A DNA stretch of 41,649 nt, taken from the IMG/VR virus record IMGVR_UViG_3300028763_000015, positions 1 to 41,649 of that record; one strand, written 5' to 3'. Every line of letters starts with the position of its first letter. The stretch's first letter is position 1. Of this stretch, positions 17,823 through 41,649 are shown one piece after another. The translations under genes were made by a program, and so were the position numbers. The notes beneath the pieces are model-generated. The model was not told the origin of the DNA and ran no database searches. It saw nothing but the letters and a program-made list of their open reading frames with translations. The DNA is from a virus.

Positions 17823-19217
17823 ATGATTGAGTTAAAAGGTAAATATACAGACGCTAAAATATTTATAGATGAAGTTGAAGAAGGAGTCTATACACAAATA
17901 TACAATGTCATTAACTCAGAAACATCTAATGGGTTGAAAGTCAGACTAATGCCAGACGTGCATGTTGGCTCAGATATTTGTATTGGGTTTTCCATGGAAT
18001 TGGGTAAGTATCTCAAACCAAGCACTATAGGTGTGGATATCGGCTGCGGGATGCTAAGTGCTAGATTTTCAGGTAGAACCACATTAGATTTAGAAAAAAT
18101 TGATAATCTGATACGTGAAAATGTTCCTATGGGATTTGGTATGCACGAAGATATCAAATTTAAAAATATCCCTTTTGGTGATGTTCAAGTAATTGCAGAT
18201 AACTTCATTGTAAAATTTAACGAAAAATTTGGGACATCTTATGATTCTCCATCATACAATGATAAATGGCTAACATCTAAATTGAAAGATATTGGAATTG
18301 ATGAAGGTAAATTTTACAAATCTATTGGTACATTAGGAGGTGGTAACCACTTTATTGAACTTGGTAAGTCAGATAAGACTAATGATTATTGGGTAACAGT
18401 CCACTCTGGGTCAAGAAACTTTGGACTTAAAATTGCGGAATACTGGACTAAAGTTGCAAGAGGTAAAGTATTCGTTGCAACCAAAGAATATAACATGGAA
18501 TTGGATGACATTACAATGAATACTTATCCTAAATCTGATATTGATAAAAAAATAAAAGAATTAAGGACAAGATACAGTCTTAATATTGACAAAGAATATT
18601 TAGATGGTGAGTATCTTATTGGATATCTATTTGATATGATTTTTGCTCAACAATATGCTCTATGGAGTAGAAAAACAATGTTATCATTGATAAAAAAAGC
18701 ATTGAATATCAAAAAGTTTGATGAAGAAATTCATTCAATACATAACTATGTTGATTTCAAAGATTTTATCATAAGAAAAGGTGCAATCTCATCTTATGTT
18801 GGTGAAAAAATGATTATACCATTCAATATGAGAGATGGAATACTTATATGCGAAGGTAAATCAAATGAAGATTGGAACAACTCAGCACCACATGGGTCTG
18901 GTCGTTTGATGTCAAGATCAAAAGCAAAAGAGTCAATTGATTTAAAAGATTTTCAGAAAGTAATGAAAGGTATATATTCAACATCTGTATGTAAAAGTAC
19001 AATTGATGAATCACCATTTGCTTACAAAAACTCTGATATGATTGAAAAAGCTATCGAGCCTACTGCATTAATTCTTGATAAAATAAAACCAATCTTAAAC
19101 ATAAAAGATAAATCTGAAGGTACATCTTGGAAAGATAAGAAAGAGCAAAAAAAGAAAGATAAGCAACGTAACAACGAAAGAAATGAAGTTTCTTATCAAA
19201 AGATGAAAAAATTCTAA
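17823..19217 (+). CDS. rtcB: RNA-splicing ligase RtcB
   Basis: 464 residues, full length. RtcB joins RNA 2',3'-cyclic-phosphate (or 3'-phosphate) ends to 5'-OH ends with GTP and Mn2+, as produced by anticodon nucleases. Visible motifs: PDVHVG (44-49), GVDIGCGM (70-77; Asp and Cys metal ligands), GTLGGGNHFIE (about 170-180), VHSGSRNFG (about 198-206) and APHGSGR (about 355-361), where the His is the guanylylated residue. The C-terminal KSTIDESPFAYKNSDMIE box is also present, followed by a lysine-rich tail. No archease, PNK or RtcA is seen nearby. Own host-type promoter and own terminator make it monocistronic. Probable role: repair of tRNAs cut by host defence nucleases (inference). Confidence 0.96.
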   Translation: MIELKGKYTDAKIFIDEVEEGVYTQIYNVINSETSNGLKVRLMPDVHVGSDICIGFSMELGKYLKPSTIGVDIGCGMLSARFSGRTTLDLEKIDNLIRENVPMGFGMHEDIKFKNIPFGDVQVIADNFIVKFNEKFGTSYDSPSYNDKWLTSKLKDIGIDEGKFYKSIGTLGGGNHFIELGKSDKTNDYWVTVHSGSRNFGLKIAEYWTKVARGKVFVATKEYNMELDDITMNTYPKSDIDKKIKELRTRYSLNIDKEYLDGEYLIGYLFDMIFAQQYALWSRKTMLSLIKKALNIKKFDEEIHSIHNYVDFKDFIIRKGAISSYVGEKMIIPFNMRDGILICEGKSNEDWNNSAPHGSGRLMSRSKAKESIDLKDFQKVMKGIYSTSVCKSTIDESPFAYKNSDMIEKAIEPTALILDKIKPILNIKDKSEGTSWKDKKEQKKKDKQRNNERNEVSYQKMKKF

Positions 19218-20123: not shown

Positions 20124-22010
20124 ATGGGAAAAATTATTGGAATTGACTTGGGTTCATATAACTCAGCAGTATCTATTGTAGAAGGTGGACAAACAATTGT
20201 CATACCTAATTCAGAAGGATCAGTATCAACACCATCTGTTGTTGCATTTGATGTGAAAACAGGAGAAATTAAAGTTGGTGATGCAGCTAAAAGGCAAGCA
20301 GCATTAAATCCAAAAAACACAATTTTTAATATCAAAAGACTTATTGGTAGAACTTATGACGAAGTTAAACATCTAAAACGTCCTTATGACATTGTAGATA
20401 ATAATGGTAAAGCTGCTGTAAAAATTGGAGATAGAATATATTCACCAGAAGAAATATCTGCAATCATTCTTCAAAAAATGAAAAAAACAGCAGAGGATTA
20501 TCTTGGAGCAAATGTAGAAAGTGCTGTAATAACAGTACCAGCGTATTTTAATTCAGATGAAAGAAGTAGCACAAAAGTAGCAGGAGAAATTGCTGGATTA
20601 AAAGTAGAAAGAATTATATCAGAACCAACTGCTGCTTCATTAAACATAAAAAATGAAACTGATAAATTATATTTTATAATAGATAGTGGTGGTTGTACAT
20701 CAGATTTTAGTTCAATTTCAATTGAAGATGGCTTATTTGAAGTAATAGCAACAGATGGTAGTTTAGATCTTGGAGGTAATTTAATTGATGATGCACTTGT
20801 TAATTACATTTCTGATGATTTTTTAAAAGAATCAGGAGTAGATATAAGAAAAGATCCTATGGCTCTTCAACGTGTCACAGAAGCAGCAGAAAAAGCAAAA
20901 ATTGAGTTATCTAATGTTACACAAACAGAAATCAATTTACCTTATATTACTGCAGTTGACGGAACGCCAAAACATTTAGTTAAAACTATAACTCGTGCCA
21001 AATTTGAACAATTAATTCAATTTTATGTTGACGAAACAATGAAATTAATTAAATCATCAATTAAAAAAAGCAATAAGAATATAAGTGATATTGATGAAAT
21101 TGTTCTTGTAGGAGGTAGCACAAGAATACCATATTTAGTAGATAACATTGAAAAATATTTTGGTAAGAAATCTAACAAGTCTCTTAACGCTGATACTGCC
21201 ATAGCATCAGGGGCTGCTATACAAGGATCCGTTCTTGCTGGAGATACAACTGACATATTATTACTTGATGTTACAGCGTTGAGCTTCTGTATTGAAACCA
21301 TGGGTGGTGTATCAACTAAAATGATAGAAGCAAATACTACAATACCGACAAGTAAGTCACAGGTATTCAGTACGGCTTCGGATAACCAACCAAGTGTCCA
21401 GGTTAATGTTTGTACAGGAGAAAGACCTATGTATGTAAACAACAAACACTTAGGTACATTTTCACTTGATGTTCCACCTGCTCGTAGAGGTACACCACAA
21501 GTAGAAATCACATTCAGCATTGATAGCAATTCTATTCTAACAGTCAAAGCTGTTGATAAAGCAACTGGAAAATCCAATGATATTAGAATTGAAGGTAAAT
21601 CATCGTTAACAAAAGAAGAGATTGAAAGAATGAAGAATGAAGCTGAACAAAATGCTGATTCAGATAAAAAAGAAAAAGAGAAAGTTGATAAACTTAATCA
21701 AGCAGATTCTATGATTTTTCAAACAGAAAAACAAATTGAAGATTTTTCTGATAAGTTAACTGAAGAAAACAAAACTGAATTGAATTCTAAGCTTGGTAAT
21801 CTTAAAGAAGCTCACAAAACTCAAAATGTTGATACTATTGATAACTGCATTAAAGAATTGAATGATTCTTGGCAAAATATTAGTTCTAAGCTTTATGAAA
21901 AATCTCAAAATGAGTCAACAAATGATTCTAATCCAACAAATGAAACTCAATCACCTAATAAAGATGATTCTGAAAATGTGACAGACGTAGATTTTGAGGA
22001 AGTAAAATAA
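20124..22010 (+). CDS. dnaK: DnaK-type Hsp70 chaperone with altered nucleotide-binding loops
   Basis: 628 residues, full length and collinear with bacterial DnaK: ATPase domain (1-~380), linker LLLDVTALSF, substrate-binding domain, helical lid and the terminal DVDFEEVK. Kept: the Lys of NIKRLIGR, VITVPAYFN, EPTAA, VGGSTRIP. Changed: phosphate loop 1 reads DLGSYNS (8-14) instead of DLGTTNS, and phosphate loop 2 reads DSGGCTSD (187-194) instead of DLGGGTFD, retaining the Asp, Thr and final Asp. The linker has Ala where VTPLSL has Pro. ATP turnover or allostery may therefore differ from host DnaK. No DnaJ or GrpE gene is visible; it may use the host's. Folding of phage proteins is the likely role. 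Confidence 0.95.
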   Translation: MGKIIGIDLGSYNSAVSIVEGGQTIVIPNSEGSVSTPSVVAFDVKTGEIKVGDAAKRQAALNPKNTIFNIKRLIGRTYDEVKHLKRPYDIVDNNGKAAVKIGDRIYSPEEISAIILQKMKKTAEDYLGANVESAVITVPAYFNSDERSSTKVAGEIAGLKVERIISEPTAASLNIKNETDKLYFIIDSGGCTSDFSSISIEDGLFEVIATDGSLDLGGNLIDDALVNYISDDFLKESGVDIRKDPMALQRVTEAAEKAKIELSNVTQTEINLPYITAVDGTPKHLVKTITRAKFEQLIQFYVDETMKLIKSSIKKSNKNISDIDEIVLVGGSTRIPYLVDNIEKYFGKKSNKSLNADTAIASGAAIQGSVLAGDTTDILLLDVTALSFCIETMGGVSTKMIEANTTIPTSKSQVFSTASDNQPSVQVNVCTGERPMYVNNKHLGTFSLDVPPARRGTPQVEITFSIDSNSILTVKAVDKATGKSNDIRIEGKSSLTKEEIERMKNEAEQNADSDKKEKEKVDKLNQADSMIFQTEKQIEDFSDKLTEENKTELNSKLGNLKEAHKTQNVDTIDNCIKELNDSWQNISSKLYEKSQNESTNDSNPTNETQSPNKDDSENVTDVDFEEVK

Positions 22011-33846: not shown

Positions 33847-34113
33847 ATGATAACAAATTTGAATATTGGAGATAAAATTATTCTAAAAAAACCTTCAAAT
33901 ATATTTGAGGAATTTGGAATACCATCAGATTTGAGTGTTGATGAAACTTATACTATATCTGAGATACATAAAGGATTAATTGATAATGTCATTATACGTG
34001 TTGGAATAAAAGAAAAACCATATTCATTATATTATATTGGATTATTTGAAACATCATTGAAATTTGAAAGAAGACAAAAATTAAACAACTTGAAAAAATA
34101 TGAAAAAAACTAA
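33847..34113 (+). CDS. Small SH3-like protein with RRQKLNNLKK tail
   Basis: 88 residues: LNIGDKIILKKPSN, LSVDETYTISEI, NVIIRVGIKEKPYSLYYI, then LKFERRQKLNNLKKYEKN. Same plan as the 16926 family with a degenerate tail. Overlaps the radical SAM gene by 14 nt. Confidence 0.7.
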   Translation: MITNLNIGDKIILKKPSNIFEEFGIPSDLSVDETYTISEIHKGLIDNVIIRVGIKEKPYSLYYIGLFETSLKFERRQKLNNLKKYEKN

Positions 34114-35176
34114 TTTAAAACTGGCAAACGGAGAAAAAGCACTAATTGTTGATAACAATGAAGTGAAAATTTTAAAATCAGAAAACTACAATTTTCTATT
34201 TAATAAAAAAACAGGATTCTTTGCCAGATGGGGTAAAACAGAAGAAGATGATGGAGATTTAAATCTTGGATTACCTGAAATTGCAGATATCGAAATTGCT
34301 GAAATTTGTGAAGGTGTTCCTGGAATAGGGCCATGTAAATTCTGCTATAAGAGTAATGGTAATCATGGACATAATATGTCATTAGAAACATTCAAAAAAG
34401 TTTTCGATAAATTACCATCAAGTATTGGACAAATCGCATTTGGTTGTGGTACATTGAGAAGACATCCTGAAATGTGGGAAATTTTCAAATATGCGAAAGA
34501 TAATGGTGTCACACCAAATTTGACAATAAATGGTGACGTTGATGATGATGAATTTGATAAAATTTCTGAGATGTGCGGAGCATGTGCAGTTTCTATTTAT
34601 GATAAAAATCTATCATATGACGCTATTAAAAAACTTACTGATCGTGGAATGAAACAAGTGAATATTCACTATATGATTAGTCAAGAAACATATGAAAAGG
34701 CATTTGAAATAATGGATGATATAAAAACTGATCCAAGACTTGAAAAATTAGGAGCATTAGTATTTTTGAGTTTAAAAACAAAAGGTAGAAGCAAAGGCAA
34801 ATTTCATCAATTGACTCAAGAACAATTTTCTAATCTTACTAATTATGCTCTTACTAATTCTGTTCCTATGGGATTTGATTCTTGCTCAGCACAAAAATTC
34901 ATGAAAGCAATTAAAGGACATGTAAATGAAGAAAAAATGATTCAATGTGCAGAACCTTGTGAAAGCACACTATATAGCTTATATGTTGATGTCAATGGCA
35001 ATTTCTTTCCATGTTCATTTTCACCTGATACAGAAGGTTGGGAAAAAGGATTATCTGTAATTGATTGTAATGATTTCATTGAAGATATTTGGCAAAATGA
35101 AAAAACAAAAAAATTCCGTGATGGTGTCATAAAATGTAGGAACTGTGCTAAAAGTTGTTCAATTTATGAAATTTAA
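34100..35176 (+). CDS. Radical SAM/SPASM-like enzyme with CX8CX2C cluster motif
   Basis: 358 residues. Cys70, 79 and 82 (EICEGVPGIGPCKFCYKSN) probably bind the SAM [4Fe-4S] cluster but with eight residues between the first two Cys instead of three. Downstream, GQIAFGCGTLRRHPE, NLTINGD and KQVNIHYMISQET fit the TIM-barrel strands of the family. The C-terminal third (CAEPCESTLYSLYVDVNGNFFPCSF ... CRNCAKSC) looks like a SPASM-type domain for extra clusters, as in peptide- and protein-modifying enzymes. I recall close relatives in other large phages, unverified. Substrate unknown; no obvious precursor peptide adjoins it. Overlaps the preceding gene and is followed by a terminator. Confidence 0.85.
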   Translation: MKKTNLKLANGEKALIVDNNEVKILKSENYNFLFNKKTGFFARWGKTEEDDGDLNLGLPEIADIEIAEICEGVPGIGPCKFCYKSNGNHGHNMSLETFKKVFDKLPSSIGQIAFGCGTLRRHPEMWEIFKYAKDNGVTPNLTINGDVDDDEFDKISEMCGACAVSIYDKNLSYDAIKKLTDRGMKQVNIHYMISQETYEKAFEIMDDIKTDPRLEKLGALVFLSLKTKGRSKGKFHQLTQEQFSNLTNYALTNSVPMGFDSCSAQKFMKAIKGHVNEEKMIQCAEPCESTLYSLYVDVNGNFFPCSFSPDTEGWEKGLSVIDCNDFIEDIWQNEKTKKFRDGVIKCRNCAKSCSIYEI

Positions 35177-37291: not shown

Positions 37292-38179
37292 ATGAATAAA
37301 TATTTCACATATACAATAAAAGACAAAAAAGATAAAAATTATCTTTTTATTAAATATCTTATTGTAACTAATATAAAATTTTCAAGTTATCATGAATGCG
37401 AATATGGTGAGTATATAACTTTCAGTGTTAATAATAACATTCCAAGAAAATTAAAATTAAAAGTTCTAAATAACATAAAAATTAGTTATGAAGAACAACA
37501 AATTTTAGAAATTATTAGTCAGTCTACACCAGGTGTGAGAATGGATGTTATGTGTGGTTCTGATTTTAATCACACTTCTGAAACAGCAAAAAATTTCTCA
37601 AATACAAACAACGTAATTTGCAGTTTCAATTTTAATGGTATAATTTGTTTAATTGACAAAAGTACAAATCTCAATAATTTATATAAGTATTATAATGATG
37701 CTCATTTGATGGAATGGGCTAAAATTGGTCCTATATGTGATGATGAATATGATGATAAAACTAAAATTGAGTATGAAAAAAAATTAAAAATATCTGAGGA
37801 AAAATCTATAAAAAGAAGAATTGAAGAACACAAAAAAGATATTGAAGTTAAAAGAAAGTATAAAGAAAAAATAAAAGGAATTGATATTGAACTATTAAAT
37901 CAAAAAGATTGGGATGATTGGAAGTTAAAAAATAAAGATTCATACGGAAATTGTGTATTTGAATATGCTGAAGGATGGGCTAAATTAATGCAATCAGAAG
38001 CAAAATCAAAAAGTAAAGAAATTGATATTGAATTACTAAAAGAAATTGCAAGTAAAACATCATTTGAAATGGATTTTTTAGGAATATCAGGATCAATGTT
38101 TTATGCAGCTCAATCAATTCTTGTACAATGTTGGAAATATGGTAGTTTACTTAAAGAATGGAGTGAAATCAATAAATGA
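37292..38179 (+). CDS. Two-part protein with conserved phage C-terminal domain
   Basis: 295 residues. N-terminal part (about 1-80): beta strands, then IPRKLKLKVLNNIKISYEEQQILEIISQS, comparable to 36554-37006. A middle charged helix (about 150-200) with two copies of (G/E)IDIELL. C-terminal ~90 residues (YGNCVFEYAEGWAKLMQSEA, IASKTSFEMDFLGISGSMF, WKYGSLLKEW) form a pattern that I recall as a common small phage domain; unverified. ATGA overlap with the HisRS-like gene suggests coupling. Function unknown. Confidence 0.7.
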   Translation: MNKYFTYTIKDKKDKNYLFIKYLIVTNIKFSSYHECEYGEYITFSVNNNIPRKLKLKVLNNIKISYEEQQILEIISQSTPGVRMDVMCGSDFNHTSETAKNFSNTNNVICSFNFNGIICLIDKSTNLNNLYKYYNDAHLMEWAKIGPICDDEYDDKTKIEYEKKLKISEEKSIKRRIEEHKKDIEVKRKYKEKIKGIDIELLNQKDWDDWKLKNKDSYGNCVFEYAEGWAKLMQSEAKSKSKEIDIELLKEIASKTSFEMDFLGISGSMFYAAQSILVQCWKYGSLLKEWSEINK

Positions 38180-38814
38180 AAATAATAAAAGAAACTTGTT
38201 ATAAAGGAACTAGAATTTTAGTCGGAGGAGAAAAAAGAGAATTAATAAATTCAATGATTAAAATATTAATTGATGAATATCATTTTCAGGAAATTCAAAT
38301 ACCAATCATTCAATTTCAAGAATTGTTTCAAAATAAGGTAGGAGAAGAAAATAACAATATGATGTACAATTTTAAAGATAGAGGAGATAGAGATTTATGC
38401 TTAGCTCCTGAATATACTGCAGTTGTTCAAAAACTATCTAAAACAACATACAAAAATGAAAAAGATGTATTATTATTCTATGTTTGTGAATGCTTTCGTG
38501 GAGAAAAACCACAGCATGGAAGATTTCGTCAATTCACTCAATTTGGAGTTGAAATATTAAATCCTACTCATGATTATCTATCAGAAGGAGCAAACTTACA
38601 ACATTTAGCAATGAAATTATTAACAAAAAATTTCACTGATAATATTGATGATTATGTTATTAACAATGATGTAAAAAGAGGACTTGATTATTACAAAAAT
38701 GGTAAGGGATTTGAAATAACTTGCGAAAAATTAGGATCATCAAAACAGATTTGTGGAGGAGGAGAATATGATGGAGGAGTTGGATTTGCAATAGGAATTG
38801 ACAGATTAATATAA
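38176..38814 (+). CDS. Histidyl-tRNA-synthetase-like catalytic core (no anticodon-binding domain)
   Basis: 212 residues, against ~420 for HisRS. Class II motifs present: motif 2 FRGEKPQHGRFRQFTQFG (107-124); the histidine-binding VKRGLDYYKNGKGFE (about 166-180); GGGEYDGG (about 194-201) in place of GGRYDGL; and motif 3 GFAIGIDRLI (203-212), at which the protein stops. The insertion between motif 2 and the histidine-binding loop is shortened and the anticodon-binding domain is missing. Either a minimal HisRS or a HisZ-like/regulatory paralogue acting on histidine or tRNA-His. No frameshift is seen after the stop. Coupled by ATGA to 37292-38179. Confidence 0.85.
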   Translation: MKIIKETCYKGTRILVGGEKRELINSMIKILIDEYHFQEIQIPIIQFQELFQNKVGEENNNMMYNFKDRGDRDLCLAPEYTAVVQKLSKTTYKNEKDVLLFYVCECFRGEKPQHGRFRQFTQFGVEILNPTHDYLSEGANLQHLAMKLLTKNFTDNIDDYVINNDVKRGLDYYKNGKGFEITCEKLGSSKQICGGGEYDGGVGFAIGIDRLI

Positions 38815-38859: not shown

Positions 38860-39213
38860 ATGAAAATAAGAAGTGGATTTGTGAGTAACTCAAGTAGCTC
38901 ATCTTTTGTAATTTTATTACCTGAGAATTTTCTTGAAATTGTTGATTATGATAAAATTACTGATGGTGATGAAGATTTTCCATTAGACACGTTTAAAGAA
39001 TTATTGAAAAAACTTATTGATGAAAATGGATTATATAATTATGATATTTATGAGTATATAATATCTAATGACGTGGAAGATTATGATTTACCTGATAGTT
39101 TAAATGATGTTATTCGTCCATACATAATTGCAGAGGTTGAAGGTGGTCCAGATGAAGGACAAATTATTATTGCTGATACTAAAAAAATCAATGAAATTTT
39201 AAAAAAGAAATAA
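38860..39213 (+). CDS. GFVSNSSSSSF-family protein 1
   Basis: 117 residues. N-terminus MKIRSGFVSNSSSSSFVILL, then an acidic alpha/beta body (YDKITDGDEDFPLDTF; IIAEVEGGPDEGQIIIAD). Only the first ~18 residues match the genes at 39218, 39676 and 41620. The identical starts with unrelated bodies suggest that the N-terminus is a signal. It is not a typical export signal: after Arg4 there is only a short Gly-Phe-Val and then Ser-rich sequence. I believe that proteins with this start occur in many phages and bacteria, from memory. Function unknown. Confidence 0.85.
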   Translation: MKIRSGFVSNSSSSSFVILLPENFLEIVDYDKITDGDEDFPLDTFKELLKKLIDENGLYNYDIYEYIISNDVEDYDLPDSLNDVIRPYIIAEVEGGPDEGQIIIADTKKINEILKKK

Positions 39214-39217
39214 AATT

Positions 39218-39658
39218 ATGAAAGTAAGAAATGGATTTGTAAGTAATAGTAGCAGTAGTTCTTTTATTGTTACTATTAAAAATGGAGAAAAAATATCAAA
39301 AAATATTCTTATGAAGTTATTTGATTTAGACGAAAATTCTATATTATTCAACTTTGCAAATGGATTATCGGATTGGATGATTAACAATCTTAAAGAAATG
39401 AGCATTAAAGATATATTTGAAAATTATTGTGATTCAGGTAAGAATTTATCAGATGAAGAAATGATAGATGAAATAATTGAACAAGGATATCCTAATATAT
39501 CTAGAGAAGATTTGTTAAGAATATTAAGAAAAGAATATCGTTATTATGAAGGTTCAGCATCTGATGATTCTGGAGATGGATTAGAAACTTATTTATGTGA
39601 AACAGGAATAAATGTCAACAATGATTTAATTCACATTCAAAGTGGAGGAGATTATTAA
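39218..39658 (+). CDS. GFVSNSSSSSF-family protein 2
   Basis: 146 residues. MKVRNGFVSNSSSSSFIVTI, then a Ser-poor, acidic helical body (ILMKLFDLDENSILFNFANG; LKEMSIKDIFENYCDSGKN). Ser codons in the tag are AGT AGC AGT AGT TCT, unlike those of protein 1. 4 nt after protein 1. Body unrelated to the other members. Confidence 0.85.
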   Translation: MKVRNGFVSNSSSSSFIVTIKNGEKISKNILMKLFDLDENSILFNFANGLSDWMINNLKEMSIKDIFENYCDSGKNLSDEEMIDEIIEQGYPNISREDLLRILRKEYRYYEGSASDDSGDGLETYLCETGINVNNDLIHIQSGGDY

Positions 39659-39675
39659 AAAAATAAATTAAAAAT

Positions 39676-40068
39676 ATGAAAATAAGAAATGGATTTGTAA
39701 GTAATTCAAGTAGTTCATCATTTGTAGTAAGAGGAATTAAACTTACAATATATGATTTAGCAAAATGCTTGAATATAAAAAATGAAGAATTTGAAGAAAT
39801 TGAAGATGATTATGATAAATTTGAATTTTTTTCAAATAAACTTGATGATGAATTTAGAATTGAAGCAGATGGTAATTATTTTGGAGAAAAAGATTACAAT
39901 ACTCTTATTGTAGGTGATTCACTAGGTGGATTAGAAGATGGAGAAGTAACAGAATTTAAAGATCGTACAACAGAAGAAGATGATGCATTACGTCAAAAAT
40001 TTGAAAAATATGGAATTACAGGAGTAATTAACACATATATTCAAATGGTGAGTAACGACAATTATTAA
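39676..40068 (+). CDS. GFVSNSSSSSF-family protein 3
   Basis: 130 residues. MKIRNGFVSNSSSSSFVVRG, then acidic alpha/beta body (IEDDYDKFEFFSNKLDDEFRI; LIVGDSLGGLEDGEV). Ser codons of the tag TCA AGT AGT TCA TCA. 17 nt after protein 2. Confidence 0.85.
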   Translation: MKIRNGFVSNSSSSSFVVRGIKLTIYDLAKCLNIKNEEFEEIEDDYDKFEFFSNKLDDEFRIEADGNYFGEKDYNTLIVGDSLGGLEDGEVTEFKDRTTEEDDALRQKFEKYGITGVINTYIQMVSNDNY

Positions 40069-40096
40069 ACCAGTTTAAAATAGAATTAATAATATT

Positions 40097-40543
40097 ATGA
40101 CAAATAATCAAACTCATAACATATTTTACTTTCTTGGAATTATGATAAATGATAATAAAATTATAAATACATCACCTGATTATTTAATAGAAAAAGCTAA
40201 TGCATTTTTTAGTAAATTAGGAAAAGATGAATTTATATCTAATATTAAAAATATATATCGTTCTCAAAAACTAGATTACACTACTGAATTTTGGTTATCA
40301 TATTGTCAAATATGGCATATTGATAAAAACAATTTTGAATTGTTAAATATTATTAATTTTATATTAAATTCAAATATTACTGATACTAAAAATGTGATTC
40401 AAAACTTTAAAAAATATATTGGAGATATTAATATCATTCCTGATTTAGATTTGAGTTTTAAATTGCATCCAACATTATTAATACATATAAATAAAAGTAT
40501 TGATTTTGATAGTAGATATTTAAAGTTATTATCACTAAAATAA
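40097..40543 (+). CDS. Unknown protein
   Basis: 148 residues, Asn/Ile-rich, helical, without the SNSSSSSF tag although it lies between tagged genes. No motif recognised. Confidence 0.75.
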   Translation: MTNNQTHNIFYFLGIMINDNKIINTSPDYLIEKANAFFSKLGKDEFISNIKNIYRSQKLDYTTEFWLSYCQIWHIDKNNFELLNIINFILNSNITDTKNVIQNFKKYIGDINIIPDLDLSFKLHPTLLIHINKSIDFDSRYLKLLSLK

Positions 40544-40563
40544 AAACAAAAGAAAATAAAAGA

Positions 40564-41601
40564 ATGACAAATAATATAGCGTTAACGTATGATGATATTC
40601 AACTTATACCATTTTATAGTGAAGTAGAACATAGAAATAAAATTTCATTAACAACAAAACTATCTACAAATTATGAGTTGATGATACCATTGGTAGCATC
40701 ACCTATGGATACCGTTTGTGAGCATGAAATGGCGTTTAAAATGTTTCAATTAGGAGGAGTAGGATGTATTCATAGATTCATGACTATTGAAGAACAAGTT
40801 GATGAAATCAAAAAATTAAAAAAATTAATTGATTATAGTTTATATAATCCTTTTATTAATGTACAGAATATTCCAATAATGGCATCAGTAGGCTCAAATG
40901 GAGATTTTTTAGAAAGGTCTAAATCATTAATAGAATCTGGAGTAAATGTAATTCTTATTGATGTTGCTCATGGACATCACATAAATGTCAAAAAAGCGAT
41001 TAAAGAAATAAAAGGATTGAATTTAGGAGTGGATATAATTGCAGGTAATATTGCAACTGCAGAAGCCGCAATTGATTTGCAAAATTGGGGAGCTGATGGA
41101 CTAAGATGTGGTATTGGTGGCGGAAGTCTTTGTACAACTAGAATCAAGACAGGATTTGGTGTTCCAAATGTTACAAGTTTAATAGAAATTTTAAATGTTG
41201 CAAAAGTACCAGTTATGGCTGATGGTGGAATTAGAACAAGTGGAGATATATCAAAGGCTCTTGCATTAGGTTCATCTACTATTATGTTAGGCTCACTATT
41301 AGCTGGAACAGAAGAATCACCAGGAAAGGTTATAGAGAGTCCTAATGGCTTATATAAACGATATAGAGGCTCTGCATCATTAGAAACAAAAACTGTTCAT
41401 GGTCAAGCGGAAAGAAATGTGGAAGGAGAGTCAACAACAATTCCATTTAAAGGAGGAGTCAAATTTGTAATTGAAGGATTAATAAACGGTGTTCGTTCTG
41501 CATTATCTTATGGAGGTGCAAAAAATTTATCTGAATATCACCCTAAATGGTATCAAGTAACAAATGCTGGAATTGCTGAAGCAAGACCACATTTATTATA
41601 A
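40564..41601 (+). CDS. IMP dehydrogenase/GMP reductase family enzyme, GMP-reductase-like
   Basis: 345 residues, all TIM-barrel landmarks present: LTYDDIQLIP, SPMDTV, GGVGCIHR, IDVAHGH, IIAGNIAT, CGIGGGSLCTTR with catalytic Cys190, PVMADGGIR, MLGSLLAGTEESPG, YRGSAS. There is no CBS-domain insertion, and the flap lacks the Arg-Tyr pair of IMP dehydrogenase, reading EGESTTIPFKGG, closer to GMP reductase (EGKTVEVPFKG), whose length (~347) it also matches. GMP reductase converts GMP to IMP with NADPH; IMPDH does the reverse-direction IMP to XMP step. The GGG in place of GPG before the Ser is unusual. It would reshape purine pools during infection. Single-gene spacing between tagged genes. Confidence 0.9.
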   Translation: MTNNIALTYDDIQLIPFYSEVEHRNKISLTTKLSTNYELMIPLVASPMDTVCEHEMAFKMFQLGGVGCIHRFMTIEEQVDEIKKLKKLIDYSLYNPFINVQNIPIMASVGSNGDFLERSKSLIESGVNVILIDVAHGHHINVKKAIKEIKGLNLGVDIIAGNIATAEAAIDLQNWGADGLRCGIGGGSLCTTRIKTGFGVPNVTSLIEILNVAKVPVMADGGIRTSGDISKALALGSSTIMLGSLLAGTEESPGKVIESPNGLYKRYRGSASLETKTVHGQAERNVEGESTTIPFKGGVKFVIEGLINGVRSALSYGGAKNLSEYHPKWYQVTNAGIAEARPHLL

Positions 41602-41619
41602 AAATAAAAACATGATAAC

Positions 41620-41649
41620 ATGAAAATAAGAAATGGATTTGTTAGTAAT
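41620..41649 (+). CDS. GFVSN-family protein 4, cut by window end
   Basis: Ten codons, MKIRNGFVSN, matching residues 1-10 of the genes at 39218 and 39676, 18 nt after the IMPDH/GMPR gene. A fourth member of the series continues beyond the window. Confidence 0.8.
   Translation, partial: MKIRNGFVSN

Follow-up and report, generated by a model that had tools for sequence, protein, structure and literature searches.

The virus record IMGVR_UViG_3300028763_000015 of IMG/VR, whose 41.6 kb were analysed in full and are called the window below, encodes a series of small proteins with a common N-terminal tail, and a radical SAM/SPASM enzyme. The tail, i.e., the first 16-18 residues, is probably the recognition and modification site of this enzyme, a single maturase that would serve many proteins. 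The reading is supported by genetic and structural evidence, and the modification itself is predicted. The tail was found on many unrelated small acidic proteins, and enzyme and tail were coupled in both directions, in phages and in bacteria. The enzyme carries the predicted fold and the cysteine signatures of peptide-modifying radical SAM/SPASM proteins. The genes concerned are located in the window as follows.

34100-35176, plus strand: radical SAM/SPASM enzyme, proposed tail maturase; 358 amino acids; phrog_7293 (function unknown).
38860-39213, plus strand: tagged protein 1; 117 amino acids; body family FAM8; tail in codons 1-18 (38860-38913); starts MKIRSGFVSNSSSSSFV.
39218-39658, plus strand: tagged protein 2; 146 amino acids; body family FAM0; tail at 39218-39271; starts MKVRNGFVSNSSSSSFI.
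39676-40068, plus strand: tagged protein 3; 130 amino acids; body family FAM10; tail at 39676-39729; starts MKIRNGFVSNSSSSSFV.
41620-41649, plus strand: tagged protein 4, start only, ATGAAAATAAGAAATGGATTTGTTAGTAAT (MKIRNGFVSN), cut by the window end at 41649.

The open reading frames (ORFs) at 38860, 39218, 39676, and 41620 confirmed the shared start MK(I/V)R(N/S)GFVSN of the original prediction, and the three complete ones have the common start MK(I/V)R(N/S)GFVSNSSSSSF(V/I). When the core pattern was searched with up to two mismatches, three matches were found in the window against 0.01 expected, and none of 100 shuffles reached three. One array gene (40097-40543) has no motif, and an IMP dehydrogenase/GMP reductase-like gene (40564-41601) also lies within the array. 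The bodies of the three complete proteins, FAM8, FAM0, and FAM10, are separate families that were not joined by profile comparison. In Pfam, nothing above the cut-offs was found in these proteins. In PHROGs (E < 0.01), all three matched phrog_7397 (function unknown) in the first 22-29 residues alone. The tblastn search with tagged protein 1 gave one match, judged to be chance, and that with a 23-residue tail gave no match in phages, for which the low-complexity filter is the probable cause. The PDB sequence searches with tagged proteins gave weak partial matches that were treated as chance, including the strongest one (E 8e-5), an entry named immunoglobulin G-binding protein A. A possible continuation of the array can be seen in the record G036, whose enzyme is 100% identical to that of the window. 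The next motif gene there, at the place of gene 41620, encodes a 153-amino-acid FAM5 protein, and the seven motif genes of this record belong to seven different families (8, 0, 10, 5, 14, 7, and 4). The motif spacing of another record, G073, matches that of the window.

By a degenerate DNA pattern, at least 119 motif stretches were found in viral contigs, with tandem arrays of up to nine motif genes (locus L100), and a reversed control pattern gave one match in 51 records. The virus records include near-copies, i.e., G002/G048 and G014/G016 by motif DNA and G003/G049 by enzyme. The loci scanned, 162 of them viral and 41 cellular, yielded 379 different tagged proteins (322 viral and 57 cellular), and the 311 viral and 54 cellular sequences with standard spacing were tabulated. 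The consensus of residues 1-16/18 was MK-I/V-R-x-G-F-V-S/T-N-S-S-S-x-S-F. Conservation is high through residue 16 except at positions 3, 5, and 14, with S/T at residue 9 in cells. Residues 17-18 are hydrophobic, and conservation is lost at residue 19, which agrees with the claim that the bodies have no obvious likeness after about 18 residues. K2 was kept in 98% and R4 in 99% of viral sequences, and the search pattern had left both free or only partly fixed. The N10-S11-S12 triplet is invariant. S11 and S12 were serine in all 365 tabulated sequences, and this constancy is informative because the search pattern allowed threonine at the serine positions.

Motif genes were also compared within the 76 loci that hold at least two of them (358 pairs, 333 of the 379 collected proteins). 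The motif showed 98.8% amino-acid identity against 73.6% nucleotide identity, and the serine codon class (TCN or AGY) differed in 606 of 1786 comparisons. The ungapped identity of the bodies was 8% (347 pairs). The mixed serine codons at corresponding positions, which had been claimed for the window, were found both there and beyond it. Because the amino acids are kept while the codons drift, selection acts on the peptide. With bodies that differ and selection on the amino acids, the earlier view of a targeting, processing, or modification signal carried by several cargo domains gained support.

The tagged proteins have a median length of 134 amino acids (n = 355) and a median isoelectric point of 4.5. 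The bodies of 349 complete proteins (body of at least 40 amino acids) were clustered into 115 BLAST families, of which 83 were singletons. Eighteen families have four or more members, and their profiles were compared in 153 pairs. Three pairs (3-13, 1-10, and 3-15) exceeded 16% probability, suggesting kinship, and the other 150 showed no convincing similarity. One known homologous family behind all bodies was looked for and not found, and apart from the three pairs the families stay unjoined in the profile comparison.

It was considered that the shared N-terminus is the first strand of one fold and that the bodies are its diverged homologues. In the model of FAM0 (pLDDT 85.6), the only tagged family modelled, the body is predicted to be folded and the first strand spans residues 13-21, so the strand begins inside the motif. 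The three merging family pairs would fit this explanation as well. However, residues 1-11 (pLDDT below 50) are predicted to be disordered, the large majority of family pairs are without similarity, and the coupling to the enzyme is left unexplained by a first strand. The explanation is thus scarcely credible for the tail as a whole, and of the earlier suggestion only the strand that starts at residue 13 stood. In the FAM0 model, the tail is flexible and runs into the first strand, and such flexibility would be expected of a substrate. No convincing match was obtained by fold search with this model, the best being Z 4.5 in PDB and E 0.075 with viral models. The C-terminus of many FAM0 proteins is -GGY or -GGW and may be a second functional end.

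The gene regularly found near the motif was the radical SAM/SPASM enzyme. In the motif-first sample, i.e., the 50 longest contigs out of about 104 distinct ones among the matches listed, the enzyme was present in 40 of the 50 large motif-bearing virus records, all with E < 1e-65. The enzyme-first search gave 52 stretches, of which 23 lay in contigs already in the motif scan and were excluded as non-independent. The motif was present in 27 of the 29 further virus records, the two exceptions being records of 38 and 25 kb, and all 29 enzymes were confirmed by profile (E <= 3e-36). As background, 40 records of 68 kb or more, selected by NrdA, were searched. The motif was found in none of them and the enzyme in one, as a weak and partial match (E 3e-5, 20.6 bits). 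The lineage of these controls is unmatched, and named T4-like isolates are the closer control. All ten named isolates agreed, i.e., RB43 and Miro carry both enzyme and motif, and T4, RB49, KVP40, Aeh1, CC31, RaK2, JS98, and S-PM2 carry neither. Enzyme relatives were found in 173 named phage records, mostly of Klebsiella (110), Enterobacter, Cronobacter, Citrobacter, and Escherichia. Two of these records were opened, RB43 and Miro, and both are T4-like Straboviridae.

Distances were calculated for the 19 enzyme-bearing records among the matches listed, after one chance pattern match in G004 was removed. The median distance from the enzyme to the nearest motif gene was 0.9 kb, against 33 kb by random placement. 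Both genes were on the same strand in all 19 records, and they were within 2.5 kb of each other in 14, against 1.6 expected.

In 84,980 bacterial and archaeal species genomes, the motif pattern was found in 41 stretches. The carriers include Firmicutes, spirochaetes, Prevotella, Verrucomicrobia, Chloroflexota, and Asgard archaea. The enzyme was encoded within the same stretch of 8 kb or less in 29 of these 41 loci (one being a contig-end fragment). For the 12 loci without a neighbouring enzyme, a full-length homologue was found in four genomes, one of which had been counted before and has it on a different contig. The search in the other direction (E <= 1e-60) covered 1189 genomes, taken from the phyla of three centre genomes, and gave 18 matches, three of them in the centre genomes. 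An adjacent motif gene was present in 14 of the 15 new matches, and the sole miss was an enzyme match without its first third. The adjacent tails read MKI(R/K)x(G/D)(F/Y)(V/I)(S/T)NSS(S/T)x(S/N)(F/Y), with minor deviations in the first three residues. The pair of enzyme and tail is present in archaeal contigs too. The pattern search that had been proposed over phages and bacteria thus found the tail to be common in large phages and present in bacteria and archaea, on bodies that differ. Among the three kinds of signal that had been suggested, modification is favoured by the two-way coupling to a radical SAM/SPASM enzyme.

A signal for targeting or packaging (to the capsid or to a phage compartment, for example) would also be expected to give one N-terminus on many cargoes, and arrays in large phages, and the enzyme would then be merely a frequent neighbour. 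Phage T4 has capsid targeting, and its capsid-targeted internal proteins are many cargoes with one N-terminal signal that is cleaved by the head protease. However, the motif is absent from T4, and the same tail and enzyme family occur in bacterial operons with an Avs-like NTPase, which makes packaging appear improbable. Capsid targeting and the strand-only explanation were set aside in view of the bacterial occurrence, the absence from T4, the unrelated families, and the disordered residues 1-11.

The enzyme at 34100-35176 scored 28.0 bits with the Pfam SPASM domain (cut-off 21.5) and matched phrog_7293 over nearly its full length (E 1e-95). Its AlphaFold2 (AF2) model had a pLDDT of 91.5. Among the candidates of Foldseek, the nearest solved folds were SuiB (Z 24.2 over 301 residues) and SkfB (Z 22.2 over 279), and further neighbours were the sactipeptide thioether enzyme 5why (Z 19.3), anSME (Z 19.1), and viperin (Z 18.7 over 229 residues). 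SuiB, SkfB, 5why, and anSME all modify peptides or proteins. For ChlB, another fold neighbour, no paper was found in the literature search. The radical SAM triad C70, C79, and C82 is invariant in 25 viral and 30 mixed sequences, with a variable length of the first gap. In the enzyme alignment A2 of 30 sequences (10 viral and 20 cellular), the radical SAM cysteines, GxDxC, and CSF are kept in all. The first part of the SPASM signature (CX9-15GX4C) occurs as CX12-13GX4C in all 10 viral and in 10 of the 20 cellular enzymes, and the other 10 cellular enzymes keep both cysteines. None of the NCBIfam equivalogs listed reached its cut-off for the window enzyme and eight cellular enzymes. A PqqD-like recognition element (RRE) had no Pfam match in the window enzyme, and AF2 gives five strands at residues 1-45.

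A quick tree was made from 149 enzyme matches reduced to 111 rows. A purely cellular clade (25 rows) and a mostly viral clade (76 viral and 10 cellular rows) were separated, both with 100% support in the Shimodaira-Hasegawa-like approximate likelihood ratio test (SH-aLRT). The 10 cellular rows within the viral clade may be viral contigs. The two clades at this support suggest that the pairing of enzyme and tail was held across a deep split.

The presence of viperin among the fold matches raises the question whether the enzyme acts on a small molecule, in a viperin-like manner for example, with a tail that just docks tagged proteins on the enzyme. A bacterial relative of the enzyme also matches prokaryotic viperin models (E 4.5e-14). 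However, the peptide maturases SuiB and SkfB gave higher Z values over more residues than viperin, and the SPASM signature was present in all 10 viral enzymes checked. Action on a small molecule is accordingly considered very unlikely.

It is reasonable to consider the tail as a transferable substrate tag, which would be read by a dedicated maturase from the same phage. The enzyme would bind the tail and abstract a hydrogen atom from one of its residues, and a change of -2 Da would be expected. Candidate places of modification are the triplet N10-S11-S12 together with the aromatic residues at positions 7 and 16. One option is a three-residue Phe7-x-Ser/Thr9 cyclophane, as with known F-x-S maturases, and another is a different crosslink involving N10-S11-S12 or F16. 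The third is oxidation of serine to formylglycine, with a precedent in anSME, whose chemistry is serine oxidation. The F-x-S cyclophane and the serine oxidation would both predict -2 Da. The finished tail may then serve as a docking, assembly, or stability element.

Alternatively, the tail may be a leader only, and the maturase may modify the variable body, as in conserved-leader/variable-core precursors of ribosomally synthesized and post-translationally modified peptides (RiPPs). One enzyme with many bodies would suit this arrangement, and the aromatic ends of many FAM0 members would offer a possible site. However, no residue pattern common to the body families was seen, profile comparison joined these families in only the three pairs above, and the tail is conserved residue by residue and includes the invariant N10-S11-S12. 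A leader-protease motif was not noticed on inspection by eye only. Modification of the body is therefore regarded as unlikely.

Several observations weigh against the tail as the substrate of the enzyme. The enzyme was missing in 10 of the 50 motif-bearing virus records, both with phrog_7293 and with the wider profile A2 (E <= 1e-10), and some of these 10 records may be fragments. Two of the records, G014 and G016 (215-222 kb), have one motif gene and no enzyme, and so some tails may work without an enzyme or borrow one. Among the genomes of the 12 cellular loci without a neighbouring enzyme, five had no enzyme at E <= 1e-10, two had partial matches, and one had a marginal match. RB43 keeps both of its tagged genes while its enzyme frame is interrupted in the record. 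In the deposited sequence (NC_007023, 92715-93864), the enzyme match is split in two overlapping frames with stop codons. The window enzyme is not next to the array but 3.7 kb away from it. The second part of the SPASM signature, CX2CX5CX3C, which belongs to the second auxiliary cluster, was found in 12 of the 20 cellular enzymes and in none of the 10 viral ones. The viral type would therefore be at most a shortened (twitch-like) SPASM protein. Finally, the conservation of residues 13-18 could partly reflect strand 1 of the body.

The system resembles radical SAM/SPASM RiPP maturases (SuiB and SkfB) and anSME in the predicted fold, the radical SAM cysteines, the SPASM CX12-13GX4C, and a substrate-like gene nearby. 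Unlike in those systems, the tagged products are whole proteins with a conserved N-terminus and many bodies per enzyme, the viral enzymes checked are without the second SPASM half, and no listed NCBIfam equivalog was at cut-off. A precursor gene coupled to a maturase is also a feature of RiPP biosynthesis. However, RiPP precursors are a short leader and a core, whereas the median here is 134 amino acids and the FAM0 body is predicted to be folded. For this reason the system was not filed as a RiPP, although it would work like RiPP maturation.

The characteristic motif of FxSxx peptides is C-terminal. The nearest published idea that was found concerns such peptides, i.e., the VMAP ternary conflict systems, where an FxSxx peptide occurs with a radical SAM/SPASM enzyme (Kaur et al. 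2020, PMC7159879). As described there, these systems are similar to ours in having a predicted radical SAM/SPASM modifier of a gene-encoded partner in an NTPase conflict operon, and the tail here holds F-V-S-N-S. They differ from ours, where the tail is N-terminal (motif residues 7-16), the partner is longer, the NTPase is NACHT/Avs-looking, and phages carry the pair with arrays. Among the triceptide synthases (3-CyFEs), MscB forms a bond between C4 of Phe and C-beta of Ser, at positions i and i+2 (PMC11002830). Such action of a SPASM radical SAM enzyme on Phe-x-Ser would be a chemical precedent for F7-V8-S9. Unlike in the MscB case, other tail residues are equally conserved, and the chemistry here is a prediction by analogy.

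No relevant paper was obtained by full-text literature search for the tail strings, where a single match was, by its title, a study of hemp-seed peptides, and no description of the tail or of the tail/enzyme pair was found in the literature, with most subscription papers outside the search. Two candidate papers were rejected, as PMC10853773 concerns other proteins and PMC3468402 a QueE. Marine T4-like phages have many radical SAM genes (PMC5332604), and the tail/enzyme pair is not named in the passages of that report that were consulted. The results as a whole suggest a chemical protein-tagging system, for which the literature searched gave no description. It is likely to be a new form of radical-SAM peptide maturation, in which one enzyme tags the N-termini of many proteins.

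In bacteria, the pair was found in operons. Nine of the 19 cellular loci laid out (18 distinct places) have the order of a large protein, a protein of about 140 amino acids, the tagged protein, and the enzyme, often followed by a protein of about 300 amino acids. For L360 and L361, the stretch covers just the end of the large gene. Five of the six large proteins scanned matched PADLOC Avs2 models (E 7e-12 to 5e-29), and the sixth had a weak match to mad8 only (E 3.6e-5). The Pfam NTPase cut-off was reached by two of the seven scanned. One large protein has NACHT and SMEK domains above the cut-off, and another has a sub-threshold trypsin-like domain. The likeness to Avs lies in these model matches. 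Unlike Avs, the intact scanned large proteins are shorter (676-984 amino acids vs 1375-1576 in the Avs2 profiles), and extra small proteins and the maturase are present.

After the tails were removed, the viral and bacterial FAM0 profiles matched with 98.6% probability (E 7e-16), and the six other viral families reached at most 3.4%. Judged by these profiles, the window protein at 39218 is homologous to the tagged protein of bacterial STAND-NTPase operons. The protein of about 140 amino acids was observed just upstream of the tagged gene in L155, L162, L167, L170, L177, L178, L190, L360, L361, L367, and L368. Pfam gave no family in the two of these proteins scanned, and a tail-less FAM0 paralogue is only hinted at by an hhalign probability of 35%. 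In L369-L371, enzyme and tagged gene are beside ABC permease-like genes (iron-transport by eye), with no NTPase within the stretch. The tagged proteins of L372-L374 have 477-511 amino acids.

Upstream of the array in the window, the gene at 37292-38179 encodes a protein that carries a Tad4 domain at its C-terminus (Pfam E 5.7e-20). Tad4 is a known inhibitor of type I Thoeris defence. Just before the array, at 38176-38814, lies a gene for a 212-amino-acid protein that resembles the catalytic core of histidyl-tRNA synthetase and is well short of full length. Farther upstream, a phage-encoded HSP70 (20124-22010, Pfam E 1.8e-197) and an RtcB-like RNA ligase (17823-19217) were observed.

As the pair is beside an Avs-like STAND NTPase in several bacteria, it plausibly plays a part in the arms race over phage defence, and we infer a defence role of the bacterial operon. 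Host takeover or counter-defence is tentatively put first among the possible functions of the phage tagged proteins, in view of their small, acidic, and variable bodies, of the neighbouring Tad4-domain gene, and of one bacterial form in an Avs-like operon. More doubtful is a further proposal, which the homology of the 39218 protein to the bacterial tagged protein would fit. By this proposal, a single radical SAM enzyme would put one radical-generated structure on the N-terminal tails of many unrelated proteins, in a manner that differs from known tagging systems. Bacteria would mature a sensor or adaptor of the Avs-like STAND NTPase via the tag, and large phages would carry tag and enzyme for arrays of matured decoys or inhibitors plugging into such defence machines.

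Through the finding, phage proteins whose role had been unknown, i.e., those with phrog_7397-like tails and phrog_7293, gain a partner enzyme and a function that can be tested directly, and they are linked to homologues in bacteria and archaea. The predicted modification could be missed or misread by ordinary proteomics. Should the immune NTPase and the phage proteins both depend on tail maturation, this would add a new layer to the arms race between phages and bacteria and would provide enzymology with a transferable tag.

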